From NCBI GenBank assembly GCA_022482815.1, contig JAKVOM010000001.1:2128946-2192945 (forward strand): a stretch of DNA of 64,000 bases. The letters run 5' to 3'. The stretch's first letter is position 1, and each line of letters begins with the position of its first letter. Both the position numbers and the translations under genes were made by a program. Shown here piece by piece: positions 37,956-43,767 of this stretch. The notes beneath the pieces are model-generated. The model worked only from the letters and a program-made list of their open reading frames with translations. It did not search any database and was not told the origin of the DNA. This DNA is from Acidaminococcus sp. (GTDB lineage: Bacteria; Bacillota; Negativicutes; Acidaminococcales; Acidaminococcaceae).

Positions 37956-37981
37956 GGCTGCGGCTTTAAATTGCCACAGAT

Positions 37982-39124
37982 TCAGATTTTAAGATTATCC
38001 AATCGATTCATACGGAAATCTTCTATGACTTGCATGAAGTCTTTACGGTGGATTGGATTATCGGGAAAACCGAATAAATGAGAAGCAGAGGGTTTATCCG
38101 TGGCACCAAATCCTTCAATTTGGAAGGCCGCAATGCGGCGCACTGCTGCTGCCATGTCTTCCTCCAGGTCATCAGCTGTACGAACGGGCACGAGGGCCTC
38201 GATATTTGCTTTCTGACGCAAGTAATCGATATGCCAATGGAAGTGCTTGCGTTTACGCTGATGACGTGCCAGACGGGCCGCCAGATTCTTTCTCGCGGAA
38301 CCGACATAGACATAATATCCTTTCGGGTAATGGACGCTGCCCAGTGAACCCGTTTCGATATCTTTATCTTCCGGAAGCGAAAGCACCACAAAGTAATCGC
38401 CCCCGTCGTGGTTTTCACGGTCCAGGATTTCCGGATGATAACCTAAGAGACCGCATACTTTCGGTAATGTGAACGTACTGTCCCACTGCAGGGACAATGC
38501 TTTCCAGTCCAATACCCCGACAGCATCCCTGAAAGTTTTGGCAAACTCCGGATCTGTATGGTAATCCGGCAGGAACCAGCGCGCCTTGTTCCAATGGACA
38601 AGGAAAAGAACACCGGTGTGGATGCCCTTCTGATGCATCCCGGCAAGTTCCGCAATATGTTTTCGGCCCCTTTCGGTCACCGCATCGGGAAACATAGCGC
38701 CATAACGGCTGAACAGCGTGCAAGACTTGACTTCTACATAAAAGAGCTCCCGGCCCCTGCCAAGCAGCAGATCAAAGCGGCTGTCCCCTGCCGTGACTTC
38801 CCGGCGGACCAGATTCCAGGACTCCCAGCCGGGGATTTTTTTATTTTCGACGAGGTAAGCTGCCACATCGTTATTATATTGCGTATCCATCAAAATCGGT
38901 ACGCCGTCACGTTCGATGCCCACGACGTCATACGGCGTCTTGCGGCCCGACTGCGCGGCCCTGCGAAGGTAAATAACAACGCCCGGAAATAAAAGCTCCC
39001 ACATCCGTCCCGGATTCGGCATATGACAGCGAACCGTTTCGCCCTGAAGCTCACATAAGGCAATAAAACGGTTCGGCCGGGAAAGAAAATGAGCTTTCAC
39101 TAAATCTTGTTTGTAATGGATCAT
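37982..39124 (-). CDS. sfsA: SfsA-family protein fused to a DUF123 (GIY-YIG-like) domain
   Basis: A 380-residue fusion. Residues 1 to about 228 are SfsA ('sugar fermentation stimulation', DNA-binding): the N-terminal OB-like part ends in CHMPNPGRMWELL, and the C-terminal part has RFDLLLGRGRELFYVEVKSCTL, whose Asp and Glu-x-Lys form a PD-(D/E)XK nuclease-like signature, reported here in shortened form as RFDLLL...YVEVKS. Residues about 235-340 form DUF123, related to GIY-YIG nucleases: GYYVYVGSARKNLAARLARH and HWHIDYLR. A short tail follows. SfsA alone is about 235 residues. It is a single gene behind the repeat and terminator region. Function is unproven. Confidence 0.88.
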   Translation of the reverse strand: MIHYKQDLVKAHFLSRPNRFIALCELQGETVRCHMPNPGRMWELLFPGVVIYLRRAAQSGRKTPYDVVGIERDGVPILMDTQYNNDVAAYLVENKKIPGWESWNLVRREVTAGDSRFDLLLGRGRELFYVEVKSCTLFSRYGAMFPDAVTERGRKHIAELAGMHQKGIHTGVLFLVHWNKARWFLPDYHTDPEFAKTFRDAVGVLDWKALSLQWDSTFTLPKVCGLLGYHPEILDRENHDGGDYFVVLSLPEDKDIETGSLGSVHYPKGYYVYVGSARKNLAARLARHQRKRKHFHWHIDYLRQKANIEALVPVRTADDLEEDMAAAVRRIAAFQIEGFGATDKPSASHLFGFPDNPIHRKDFMQVIEDFRMNRLDNLKI

Positions 39125-40013: not shown

Positions 40014-41048
40014 TTAGGCAATATACACAAGTTTAACCTGGTCTCCCAGTTTAAACTGTTCGTGGCTGGATGCGTAAACCGTCACATTACGATGATTGCA
40101 AAGCAGTGAGTACTGAATTTCCCTGCCGCTATATTGCTTATTGGTGATGACGGCATCAAGACCGCTGCCTTCAAAGCAAATTTTGAATTGTTCCGGACGC
40201 ACGGGGAAAATGCCTTTCTGACGGAACACACCAGAAATTTCCTTCCCGTCATAGGTAACCGGACATCCGTCGGCAGAAAAGGCATCACCGTTCCAATGAC
40301 CTTGCACAAGGTTGCACTTGCTGACAAAGGTCGCTACAAATTCTGTTTTCGGGTGGCAGTAGATTTCTTCCGGTGTTCCGAGCTGCTCAATGTGGCCGCT
40401 GCGCATAACAAGAATACGATCCGCCATGGCAAGTGCTTCACTCTGGTCATGAGTGACGTAGATAACCGTAGCACCCGTACGCTGGTGAAGATCCTGGATT
40501 TCTTTACGCATACTGATTTTCAGTTCTGCATCCAGGGCGCTCAGCGGTTCATCCATCAAGAGAATGGAAGGTTTTCTGACAATAGCCCGCGCCATAGAAA
40601 CGCGCTGACGCTGTCCGCCGGAAAGTTCACTGGGAAAACGATGTTCATAAGCGGTGAGTCCCATGGCATTGATTGTCCTGTCTACCATTTTCTTTTTTTC
40701 ATCCGCAGACAGAAACTGACAGCGTTTACTCTTGAGCGGAAATTCCACATGCTCCCGCACGGTCATGTGGGCCCAGAGAGCAAAAGACTGGAAAACCATT
40801 CCGAGATTGCGGTCTTCCACCGGTACCATACGTCCTTTACCGGAATAAATTTCCTTGTCCATCCGAATGATACCGGAAGTCGGCTCCTGAAATCCGGCAA
40901 TGGCTCGCAAAAGCGTCGTCTTGCCGCACCCGGAAGGTCCTAGAATGGCCATAAACTCACCATCGTTGATTGTTAAATTAATATCGTTAAGCGCCAGCGT
41001 TGTCCCGAATTGCTGCGTTACGTGTTCCAGAAACAAACTCACTTTCAA
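40014..41048 (-). CDS. ABC transporter ATP-binding protein, Fbp/Pot/Afu type
   Basis: A 344-residue importer ATPase. Walker A GPSGCGKTTLLRA, Q-loop, signature LSGGQRQRVSMARA, Walker B ILLMDEPLSALDA and switch His in YVTHDQSEAL are intact. A C-terminal TOBE-like regulatory domain (about 240-344) follows. The TTG start at 41048 has AAGGAG just upstream and lies inside the permease gene (62-bp overlap). It belongs with the permease and lipoprotein that follow. Confidence 0.92.
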   Translation of the reverse strand: MKVSLFLEHVTQQFGTTLALNDINLTINDGEFMAILGPSGCGKTTLLRAIAGFQEPTSGIIRMDKEIYSGKGRMVPVEDRNLGMVFQSFALWAHMTVREHVEFPLKSKRCQFLSADEKKKMVDRTINAMGLTAYEHRFPSELSGGQRQRVSMARAIVRKPSILLMDEPLSALDAELKISMRKEIQDLHQRTGATVIYVTHDQSEALAMADRILVMRSGHIEQLGTPEEIYCHPKTEFVATFVSKCNLVQGHWNGDAFSADGCPVTYDGKEISGVFRQKGIFPVRPEQFKICFEGSGLDAVITNKQYSGREIQYSLLCNHRNVTVYASSHEQFKLGDQVKLVYIA

Positions 41049-42714
41049 TCTTCTCCTTCTTTAGCACAGCGCTAAAATTTACAATCCCATAGCCCACCAG
41101 GATCATGGCAACTATCAATGTGGACATAGCAGCCGAAAGGCTGTATTCCCCACCCTGCTGGAAATTAAAGATCGTCAGACCGATGGTCTTCGTGTCTGCA
41201 CTGGCAAGCATGGAAGAAAGGGTCAGCTCCGTCAGAGATGATACAAAAATCAGGAAAGAGCTGGAAAGGACATTCTTTTTCAAAAGCGGAATCAGTACAA
41301 AGCGCCAGGTCATCAGAAAATTTCCTCCGGAGGAGCGAACGGCTTCTTCAAGTTCCGGATTGACGGATAACAGTGCTGTCGTACTCCCCTTGATCTGCAG
41401 AATCAAATAGCGCGTCAGGTACGCAATCACCAGAATGTTGATTGTTCCGTAGATACCCGGATGAATTCCGGGCAGCGGTTCTGTCCAGTGAAAGATCATC
41501 GATAGAGACAGTACAATACCTGGAATGGCATAGGTCATGGCCGCGCATTTTTCTCCGATGACTACGGCATGATTGCCGCGCCGCACCTTGAGATAGGCCA
41601 TCGCCGTTCCAATGAGGATACACAACGTACACGTGACCATTGCCAGGATCAGGCTGTTGCTGATTGACGAAAGAACGGACGTATTGGTGCAGACAAATTC
41701 AAAATTATCAACGGACAAATTCTGCCGAGTAATGGCAAGCCCGTAATTTTTAAGGAATGCATTGGAAACCATCACAAGGAGAGGAATCATATCAAAAAGC
41801 CCCCACCCCAGGAGCAGTATCACTTCCGCAGCTTTGCGGCGGCTTTCACGGATATAAACGCGTGGAGAAAAATCCTCCTTGATACTTTCCATGGCGCCGC
41901 CCTTACGAACCAGGACTTCCAGCAGCGTACCGCCGATGGCAATTGCGCAGAGCAGTACCGAAAGCGCTGCCGCGAGCGGGAACGACTGTGGGCCGAAGCT
42001 GATTGCCTTTTCGTAGATATAGGTACTCAGCACGGGAATCCCGGCCGGAATCCCTAGAAATGCCGGTACCGAGAAATTGTCAATAGCCGCCAGAAAAGAA
42101 AGGACGGCTCCACTCATGATGGCCGGCATGGCTTCCGGTACATCAATCTTCCAGAAGGTTTTCAAAATACTGAACCCGCAGGAACGCGAGGCCCATTCCA
42201 GATCTTTTGGAATCTTCCGCAGCGTGTGGGTCACGGAAAGGTAAACAATCGGGATATTGCAGACACCGACAATAAACAAAATGCCGCCGATGGAATAAAT
42301 ATTGATGGTTCCGAGGCCCAGCGCTGCAGCAGTCCTGTTAATCAAGCCTCTTTTCGTAATTATTCCGGCCCAGGAAAGGGTCGTAATATACGAAGGGATA
42401 ATAAAAGGCATCAGCACAAGCATCTCAAGGAGATGTTTGTGCCGAAAATTCGTATAAGCAATGACGAAAGCCATACACGTGCCAACTACTGTCGCAATGC
42501 CGGATGACCCTACCGCAATGATAAGCGTGTTAATAATGGCTTTGAGCGTCCGCGGCTCATGGAGCAGGACCACAAAGTTCTGCAGTCCATAGCCATCCGG
42601 TCCTTTGCAGCTCATGATAATTAGCCGAAGAATCGGAGCCACAAAGAAGAGAAAGATTACTGCATAAAAAAGCAGTGTACCGATGCGGTTTTTCAATTGA
42701 TTATGGTGAATCAT
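40987..42714 (-). CDS. ABC transporter permease, duplicated (Fbp/Afu-type)
   Basis: A 575-residue permease carrying two tandem six-helix units in one chain. Each unit has an EAA loop that meets the ATPase: LEWASRSCGFSILKTFWKID in the first and LEEAVRSSGGNFLMTWRF in the second. This double permease form is typical of FbpB, AfuB and PhnU/V-like systems. It overlaps the ATPase gene and starts 15 bp after the binding-protein gene. Confidence 0.92.
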   Translation of the reverse strand: MIHHNQLKNRIGTLLFYAVIFLFFVAPILRLIIMSCKGPDGYGLQNFVVLLHEPRTLKAIINTLIIAVGSSGIATVVGTCMAFVIAYTNFRHKHLLEMLVLMPFIIPSYITTLSWAGIITKRGLINRTAAALGLGTINIYSIGGILFIVGVCNIPIVYLSVTHTLRKIPKDLEWASRSCGFSILKTFWKIDVPEAMPAIMSGAVLSFLAAIDNFSVPAFLGIPAGIPVLSTYIYEKAISFGPQSFPLAAALSVLLCAIAIGGTLLEVLVRKGGAMESIKEDFSPRVYIRESRRKAAEVILLLGWGLFDMIPLLVMVSNAFLKNYGLAITRQNLSVDNFEFVCTNTSVLSSISNSLILAMVTCTLCILIGTAMAYLKVRRGNHAVVIGEKCAAMTYAIPGIVLSLSMIFHWTEPLPGIHPGIYGTINILVIAYLTRYLILQIKGSTTALLSVNPELEEAVRSSGGNFLMTWRFVLIPLLKKNVLSSSFLIFVSSLTELTLSSMLASADTKTIGLTIFNFQQGGEYSLSAAMSTLIVAMILVGYGIVNFSAVLKKEKIESEFVSGTRNAAIRDNAGA

Positions 42715-42729
42715 AAACGTTTTCCTTAC

Positions 42730-43767
42730 TTATTGATTAAACAGTGCACTGAATTGTTTCTTATCATTTTCACGTTCTTTAAAGAGTTCCAGAGGGTTAG
42801 CAGCAATCGGTTTGATATCTTTGACACCCTTAAGACCTTCCGGAGCCTTGACGTCTTCGCGAATCGGAGTATAGCCAATGCCGGCAGCTACCTCCTGGCC
42901 TTCCTTGGACAGAATAAAGTCGATGAAGGCCTTGGCAGCCGCTTTATTCTTGGACGCTTTCAAGAGGCCAATCGGTTCGGTTACATAGGGAGAGCCTTCA
43001 GCCGGATAGATAAATTCGACAGGAGCGCCGTTCTTCTTGGAGCGCATCACCATGTAGTCTACGATGATACCGGCAGCCTTATCGCCGGCAACTACTGCCT
43101 TTTGAATGGAGCCATTCCCCTTATCAACCTTGACGCCATTGGCTTTCAGGTTCTTGTAGAAATCCCATCCGATACCCTTGGTACGGGTCAGCACACCCAG
43201 GTTGTAAGCGGCAGCACCGGAATACAGCGGGCTCGGCATGGTCACTTCATCTTTAAGAGCTGGTTTCACGAGATCGGCAAAAGACGTAATCTTTTCCTTC
43301 GTACGGGTCGTATTGACGATGATACCGGTCGTAATAATTTTTGTCCCGGCATACATATGATCTTTATCTACGTACTGGGATGGAATGTTTTTGGCTTCCG
43401 GAGAGTCATAAGCTTCGAGTAAATCCTTGGATTTCAAGGACTCAAATGTCACGTTATCGGCAACGAGCAGTACATCGGCCTGTACCTGGCCTGCTTCCTT
43501 TTCTGCCATGACTTTGCTGATGACTTCCTCTGTACCGGAACGGAAGACGCTGACTTTCACATCCGGATATTTCTTATTAAAAGCAGCAATCAATTTTTGA
43601 GCGTCCGCATTCGGCTGAGACGTGTACAACACAATTTTGCCGGAAGGTTTGCCCTTATCATTAGAGGCAGCCTTATTATCAGTTCCCTTGCCGCCGCAGC
43701 CGGCCATTCCCACAGCCATCAAACTGGCCAGAATGAGTGCCATCGTTTTTTTACCCAAGAATTTCAT
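42730..43767 (-). CDS. ABC transporter solute-binding lipoprotein
   Basis: A 345-residue extracytoplasmic binding protein with a lipoprotein signal (hydrophobic segment then MAGCGG, lipidated Cys about residue 24). The mature part starts GKIVLYTSQPNADAQKLIAAF, as in the Fe3+/sugar-phosphate/aminoethylphosphonate-binding group. The paired tyrosines that bind iron in FbpA are not apparent, which argues against a simple ferric function. Its neighbours, a TIM-barrel isomerase-like protein and a PHP phosphoesterase, suggest a phosphorylated organic ligand, as for AfuA. Confidence 0.88.
   Translation of the reverse strand: MKFLGKKTMALILASLMAVGMAGCGGKGTDNKAASNDKGKPSGKIVLYTSQPNADAQKLIAAFNKKYPDVKVSVFRSGTEEVISKVMAEKEAGQVQADVLLVADNVTFESLKSKDLLEAYDSPEAKNIPSQYVDKDHMYAGTKIITTGIIVNTTRTKEKITSFADLVKPALKDEVTMPSPLYSGAAAYNLGVLTRTKGIGWDFYKNLKANGVKVDKGNGSIQKAVVAGDKAAGIIVDYMVMRSKKNGAPVEFIYPAEGSPYVTEPIGLLKASKNKAAAKAFIDFILSKEGQEVAAGIGYTPIREDVKAPEGLKGVKDIKPIAANPLELFKERENDKKQFSALFNQ

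Follow-up and report, generated by a model that had tools for sequence, protein, structure and literature searches.

Does a protein that joins SfsA to a DUF123 domain hold two working nuclease centres in one chain and, if so, what would the pair do? This question is raised by a gene in a 64,000-nucleotide stretch of an Acidaminococcus sp. genome (the window), in which a sequence-only reading had recognized two nuclease-like folds in a single open frame. The coordinates given in that reading, 37982-39124, are exact, the gene lies on the minus strand, and the motifs RFDLLL, YVEVKS and YVYVGSARKNLAARLARH that it quoted are all present in the translation. The features of the locus are as follows.

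37982..39124, minus strand: SfsA-DUF123 fusion gene, 380 aa (ATG at 39124, stop codon at 37982-37984, free of internal stops)
38891..39085, minus strand: SfsA N-terminal OB domain, residues 14-78 (Pfam SfsA_N; the model aligns to the SfsA structures 4dap and 4dav)
38519..38881, minus strand: SfsA PD-(D/E)XK domain, residues 82-202 (Pfam SfsA; fold match)
38771..38773, minus strand: D118, aspartate of PD-(D/E)XK
38726..38734, minus strand: E131-V-K133, (D/E)XK half-motif
38420..38518, minus strand: linker and C-terminal part of SfsA, residues 203-235, lowest in conservation
38069..38419, minus strand: DUF123 or GIY-YIG-like domain, residues 236-352 (Pfam DUF123 at 266-351; residues 232-380 modelled alone)
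38393..38395, minus strand: Y244, GIY tyrosine
38306..38308, minus strand: Y273, YIG tyrosine
38261..38275, minus strand: R284 and H288, GIY-YIG arginine and general-base position
38162..38164, minus strand: E321, putative metal-binding Glu of GIY-YIG (weak-score alignment to the Glu of small GIY-YIG proteins)
38087..38095, minus strand: K344-P-S346, site of the DCxC cysteine loss
37985..38068, minus strand: C-terminal helical tail, residues 353-380 (helices 361-371 and 373-379 in the model)
37958..37979, minus strand: terminator-like hairpin directly past the stop codon (7 pairs and a T-rich tail; weak)

A Pfam profile search matched SfsA_N to residues 14-78 (E 1.4e-20), SfsA to residues 82-202 (E 4.3e-35) and DUF123 to residues 266-351 (E 3.1e-21), each well above its own cut-off (121 bits against 22.8 for PF03749, 76.1 bits against 25 for PF01986), in agreement with the earlier claim that SfsA and DUF123 share one chain. 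The NCBIfam model TIGR00230 scored 182.4 bits against a cut-off of 126.45; its name, 'DNA/RNA nuclease SfsA', is a label and not a test. The AlphaFold2 model of the whole fusion protein had a pLDDT of 94 and a pTM of 0.90. Within its own genome, a single contig of 3,057,042 bases, DUF123 was matched nowhere besides the fusion, and two GIY-YIG matches lie outside it, in frames of 101 and 647 residues, the second of which is UvrC-sized. The hairpin past the stop codon is weak evidence for a terminator, since three such sites were found in the whole stretch against 2.0 in shuffles. A frameshift, a misassembly or a chance join as the source of the frame was considered and rejected. Scanning of named genomes yielded 191 relatives, and among the best 80 there were 79 one-frame fusions and one (L119) broken over two frames; because SfsA and DUF123 share one frame in 79 of these best 80, an artefactual join is very unlikely. 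The fusion gene runs over two frames in L052 (G045) and in L119 (Anaeroglobus geminatus), which may be a true frameshift or a sequencing error.

In the SfsA half, D118, E131 and K133 are invariant in 59/59 aligned fusions and also in 20/20 separate SfsA proteins of Negativicutes. The model of residues 1-231 superposed on E. coli SfsA (4dap) with Z 27.5 and an rmsd of 1.9 over 228 aligned residues, and on the P. furiosus SfsA-DNA complex (4dav) with Z 27.1, so the predicted structure of this half fits that of a solved SfsA-DNA complex.

The DUF123 half keeps the residue set expected of a GIY-YIG nuclease. Y244, Y273, R284 and E321 are invariant in all 59 fusions and in all 41 DUF123 domains that lack an SfsA partner, while H288 is found in 58/59 and 38/41, respectively, the remaining three of the latter having Tyr. 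The spacings are 11 residues from Y273 to R284, 4 from R284 to H288 and 37 from R284 to E321, which fits the spacing of UvrC-type GIY-YIG domains. The alignment was inspected for a DUF123 part devoid of catalytic residues; they are kept, and the reading of two nuclease-type domains in one chain, with the expected residues invariant or nearly so in both, was not refuted.

The same reading had taken DUF123 for a relative of GIY-YIG nucleases; the residue set agrees with this, and structure comparison supports the fold weakly. The PF01541 GIY-YIG model scored 14.7 bits on this protein, under its cut-off of 22.6, and among 11 full fusions in the 40 genomes searched it was passed by two (G009 and G027, 22.8 bits) and missed by nine, this protein included. 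When the DUF123 part (residues 232-380) was modelled alone, the pLDDT was 93.6 and the best structure match was the GIY-YIG domain of UvrC (1yd6; Z 4.7, 75 residues, rmsd 2.8), in a tie with the 5hmC-specific restriction endonuclease 9u75 (Z 4.0); among the matches listed, all others were under Z 3. Foldseek returned nothing at E <= 0.001 for this model and no GIY-YIG description among the best 50 matches listed, and a search by sequence found no solved structure of DUF123. An hhalign comparison with small GIY-YIG proteins of the class, which covered 24 of 25 loci (all but L239), pairs Y273, R284, H288 and E321 with their GIY-YIG counterparts at weak scores (E 0.009, probability 4.5%). Taken together, the model lends weak support to a GIY-YIG fold of the DUF123 part, which agrees with the two PF01541 passes and with the published assignment of COG1833. 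Some fusion frames are longer by about 25-60 residues and reach 411-444 residues (L043-L046, L103-L105, L107 and L114, of which L103-L105, L107 and L114 are in records titled Veillonella); their match breaks near residues 315-322, about at the putative catalytic Glu.

The D-C-x-C-x-x-H cluster of DUF123 reads D-K-P-S-A-S-H in this protein, with K344 and S346 at the cysteine positions and D343 and H349 kept, a departure that the earlier reading had not remarked on. Cysteine is found at position 344 in 56/59 fusions and 40/41 DUF123 domains without SfsA, and at position 346 in 54/59 and 40/41. Both cysteines are also gone in L074 (D-K-P-S-R-S-H), and the other two Acidaminococcus rows, L083 and L133, keep the first and have lost the second. 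Since the Cys and His residues of COG1833 are called semi-conserved, with a suggested stabilising role, in the available part of a 2006 survey (PMC1564403), the lost cysteines were not taken to deny DUF123 membership; as far as the alignment tells, the loss of both is a lineage-specific change with the putative catalytic set kept. If the cluster binds metal, metal binding would be lost here while the catalytic set remains. The fusion of Megasphaera micronuciformis (L116:6001-7131) goes further: it keeps the SfsA catalytic residues and its DUF123 half is broadly eroded, with changes at H288, W297, H298 and the Cys/His cluster, which suggests that the second centre can be dispensable.

These cases bear on the main rival explanation, in which only the SfsA half cuts and DUF123 is a structure-binding or positioning module whose residues are kept for folding or recognition. 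The eroded DUF123 of L116 beside intact SfsA residues, the absence of DCxC from this protein and L074 and of half of it from L083 and L133, and the weak GIY-YIG fold match of the DUF123 model would all be expected of such a module. Folding alone, however, would hardly seem to demand that exactly the catalytic set Y244, Y273, R284 and E321 stay invariant in every fusion and every other DUF123 aligned, and we consider this explanation unlikely, though it is the strongest competitor.

How widely the fusion occurs was examined in several samples, and it proved to be widespread, not peculiar to one genome. In 200 Negativicutes genomes, 110 match the protein: 54 have SfsA and DUF123 in one frame, two more carry split fusions, 53 have a whole or partial SfsA without DUF123, and one holds an undecided fragment. 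The fusion was also found in 19/148 genomes of the phylum sample of a Syntrophaceae genome, in 3/23 of that of an archaeon (L147), and, as 11 full-length and 4 partial or interrupted forms, in the 100 genomes of that of a Nitrospiraceae genome. The nearest named relatives include Acidaminococcus (L074 and L133, the latter A. intestini DSM 21505), and the record titles among the 191 relatives name Megasphaera, Veillonella, Dialister, Anaerospora, Syntrophaceae, other 'Deltaproteobacteria', Nitrospirae, Schekmanbacteria, Hakubella and two archaea. Read from such titles, Thermodesulfobacteriota, Myxococcota, Nitrospirota and Actinomycetota are among the holders; phylum names outside Negativicutes may rest on faulty binning, because those records are nearly all metagenome bins.

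Each half was then placed in a tree, both by 'quick' searches without bootstrap. In the SfsA-half tree (71 chosen rows; L207 dropped for a split hit, and row L219, labelled 'alone', lying at a contig end), 33 fusions group together with one contig-end piece at an SH-aLRT of 99, and the 20 separate Negativicutes SfsA form their own group, also with 99. In the DUF123-half tree (74 chosen rows, leaving out the partial rows L180 and L181, some near-copies and rows with long inserts), all 32 fusion rows fall in one group (SH-aLRT 99). Because the fusions form one group in both trees, the best-fitting and simplest reading is that the fusion probably arose once and then moved between phyla.

A genome hardly ever carries both the fusion and a separate SfsA. 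Across four samples totalling 470 genomes, both forms were present in a single genome (G131) against 25.4 expected if they were independent, kinship being ignored. The fusion counts in this table are 56/199 for Negativicutes (54 single-frame genes, plus G045 with the parts in adjacent frames and G026 with them on two contigs; the 38-residue fragment of G140 was dropped, and some of the 53 'separate SfsA' are pieces), 19/148 for the Syntrophaceae phylum (short fragments in G603, G632, G674 and G716 scored as no SfsA), 15/100 for the Nitrospiraceae phylum (including no more than partial pieces in G817, G832 and G839 and, in G783, a single frame that contains an insert) and 3/23 for the archaeal phylum. 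Taken alone, the Nitrospiraceae-phylum set (p 0.07) and the archaeal set (p 0.25) did not reach significance, again with kinship ignored. Given this near exclusion, the fusion probably stands in for the separate SfsA and does its job, as judged from gene content.

The exchange seems to have taken place even within a single genus. Three genomes, that of the window, G048 and G171, carry the fusion, and five genomes of the same genus (G073, G082, G086, G098 and G110) have only a separate SfsA of a distant group. In A. intestini (L023), the fusion adjoins the same topA-dprA-hydF genes as in the window. Four of the five separate-SfsA genomes still have dprA and hydF together, and for G110 the stretch examined yielded hydF alone; no fusion lies within about 1.5 kb of hydF in any of the five (a wider stretch for G073). 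At E <= 1e-15, no other gene in the stretches around their separate SfsA genes has a match in the window.

A second alternative is that the two domains were joined by chance and act on separate substrates, the fusion having spread as a merely linked unit. DUF123 does have unrelated partners, such as GNAT acetyltransferase domains, and separate DUF123 and SfsA genes show no co-occurrence beyond background: SfsA is present in 229/398 genomes of the phylum sample, and 12/24 genomes with a separate DUF123 have SfsA versus 209/366 without DUF123. In archaea that have both as separate genes, the two are close in 2/8 (0.8 kb in G749 and 2.5 kb in G754), too few to use. Chance joining fits poorly, however, with one fusion group kept across several phyla, with a pTM of 0.90, which suggests a set placement of the domains in the model, and with a fusion that seems to replace separate SfsA; we regard it as quite improbable.

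Other architectures came to light during the survey. DUF123 is C-terminal to a GNAT acetyltransferase domain in L178, L179 and L182 (G500, G247 and G320; assigned by Pfam for the first two, with L182 looking alike), and the three adjoin in the DUF123 tree with a support of 67. It ends frames of 343-456 residues in L215:440-1468, L217:703-1785 and L221:864-2231, the first 200-350 residues of which have no Pfam match at E <= 0.001 and are perhaps other partners, perhaps just long frames. A 1247-residue frame (L222:1100-4840) ends in SfsA-DUF123 (residues 876-1210), its first ~870 residues being without a Pfam match. In L137:2269-4107, SfsA-DUF123 is in frame with a short-chain dehydrogenase, which may reflect read-through or an assembly error, and L163:877-1830 (G269) holds DUF123 and a nitroreductase in one open frame of 317 residues.

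The neighbourhood offered little on function. We rejected a prophage or defence gene, as its neighbours in the window look chromosomal (topA, dprA and hydF, named from their sequences by eye) and matches to phage and defence profiles were absent or marginal: none at E <= 0.1 in the PHROG search and one in the PADLOC search (E 0.022, 12 bits). Predicted ORFs around 80 loci were clustered, with flanks of at most 6 kb that often stop at contig ends. Besides the fusion, 16 of 101 clusters cross the Negativicutes border or recur in at least three other loci, each in at most 10/80 loci, and no function was drawn from neighbours because no gene is general across that border or among the 80 loci. The closest thing to an operon partner, in Megasphaera-type loci only, is a gene of about 195 residues 3' of the fusion on the same strand in nine such loci (L080:7226-7813 and like genes in L076, L079, L081, L082, L086, L088, L116 and L119), 25-114 bases away in seven; the two copies searched had no Pfam match, and outside these loci it recurs only far off in L140. 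A GTPase with a TGS domain (assigned by Pfam in L132 and L152) lies on the opposite strand 99-183 bases from the fusion in L132:4902-5882, L137:1184-2086 and L152:4916-5902, and farther away in L134. A nitroreductase is near the fusion in 9/80 loci, at 1.2-4.8 kb. On the same strand as the fusion, positions 40014-43767 of the window hold, by eye, ABC-transporter-like genes (ATPase, permease, binding protein) beside a PHP-domain-like gene, and the order is the same in L014.

A third alternative, that the protein serves mainly to bind DNA and regulate sugar genes, has in its favour the historical name of SfsA and the non-specific DNA binding of the E. coli protein cited in the available part of PMC1189080, but is very improbable given that nuclease-type residues are invariant in both halves and that the Pfam matches at E <= 1 include no helix-turn-helix family.

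On balance, we lean towards the view that the protein belongs to a family of bifunctional nucleases, with two live centres that act on structured or damaged nucleic acid and make two cuts; we infer the activity, the substrate and the cuts. This two-centre reading is favoured because the catalytic residues are invariant in both halves of 59 fusions from several phyla and because the two catalytic domains are conserved about equally (mean pairwise identity 0.54 and 0.52, against 0.46 for the OB domain and 0.31 for the linker part, residues 203-235). Further points in its favour are the Pfam matches to both domains, the confident model and its likeness to solved SfsA, UvrC as the first structure match of the DUF123 part, the two PF01541 passes, the single fusion group in both trees and the near exclusion of separate SfsA. 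It is weakened by the sub-cut-off PF01541 score, the weak Foldseek and hhalign results, the eroded L116, the lack of co-occurrence of the separate genes and the lack of a general neighbour. In this mechanism, the OB domain would hold structured or damaged nucleic acid, and a metal-dependent PD-(D/E)XK centre of D118, E131 and K133 in the SfsA core would do the basic SfsA job. The DUF123 domain, as a GIY-YIG domain of the COG1833 type, would add a second metal-dependent centre (Y244, Y273, R284, H288 and E321) and with it a second cut. Held at a fixed place relative to the first, the GIY-YIG centre would allow two cuts in one binding event, by analogy with the two incisions of UvrC. A bolder version, which we think rather unlikely, sees a single protein that makes two repair cuts as UvrC does and evolved independently of it: the cuts of its PD-(D/E)XK and GIY-YIG centres would flank a lesion, a branch or an RNA-containing stretch held by the OB domain, lone SfsA would make one of the two cuts in this task, and in this Acidaminococcus lineage the GIY-YIG half would no longer have its supposed metal cluster and would bind substrate in a different way.

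That SfsA may be a nuclease has been proposed before: a 2005 paper predicted it to be an OB plus PD-(D/E)XK nuclease (PMC1189080), and by 2007 Pfam's nuclease clan included it (PMC1913061). As far as its available text extends, the 2006 survey describes DUF123 as GIY-YIG under COG1833, lists a fusion to endonuclease III, occurring in Methanococcales, as the sole fusion, and contains no occurrence of SfsA, COG1489 or 'sugar fermentation' (PMC1564403). In the open literature we found no paper that brings SfsA and DUF123 together and, from 2012 on, none that mentions SfsA with 'nuclease activity'; with subscription journals outside this scope, this does not prove absence. SfsA occurs in many prokaryotes, and a stable natural fusion with a second nuclease-type domain is a gene-fusion hint that it processes nucleic acids; the fusion also offers a way to test the role of SfsA with two sets of point mutants and clear predictions. 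DUF123, to Pfam a domain of unknown function, would gain a second nuclease partner beside endonuclease III. Pfam or InterPro may already list the SfsA-DUF123 architecture.

Among known systems, SfsA itself (TIGR00230, or PF03749 with PF17746; 4dap and 4dav) has the OB and PD-(D/E)XK layout and D118/E131/K133 in common with the fusion, which differs from the solved and separate forms by its C-terminal DUF123. The SfsA half of the fusion also forms a tree group of its own and has the motif PNPGRM where 20 separate Negativicutes SfsA have KNTGRC (with one exception in the last letter). NucS/EndoMS (2vld and 5gke) bears a distant fold likeness to the SfsA half (Foldseek E 4e-4 to 8e-4), with a Z of 7.6 for 2vld that is at the level of common arrangements, 11-12% identity and partial overlap; DUF123 is not named in its match rows. 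COG1833/DUF123 proteins, EndoIII-DUF123 included, have the same domain and the same Y, Y, R, H, E set as the fusion, whereas the partner here is SfsA and this protein lacks the usual DCxC cluster. UvrC likewise combines a GIY-YIG centre with a second nuclease centre in one chain, an analogy of mechanism only. That second centre is EndoV-like in UvrC, according to the available part of the survey (PMC1564403), and PD-(D/E)XK in the fusion; the order of domains differs, and no EndoV-like, UvrB-binding or HhH domain is among the Pfam matches of the fusion at E <= 1.
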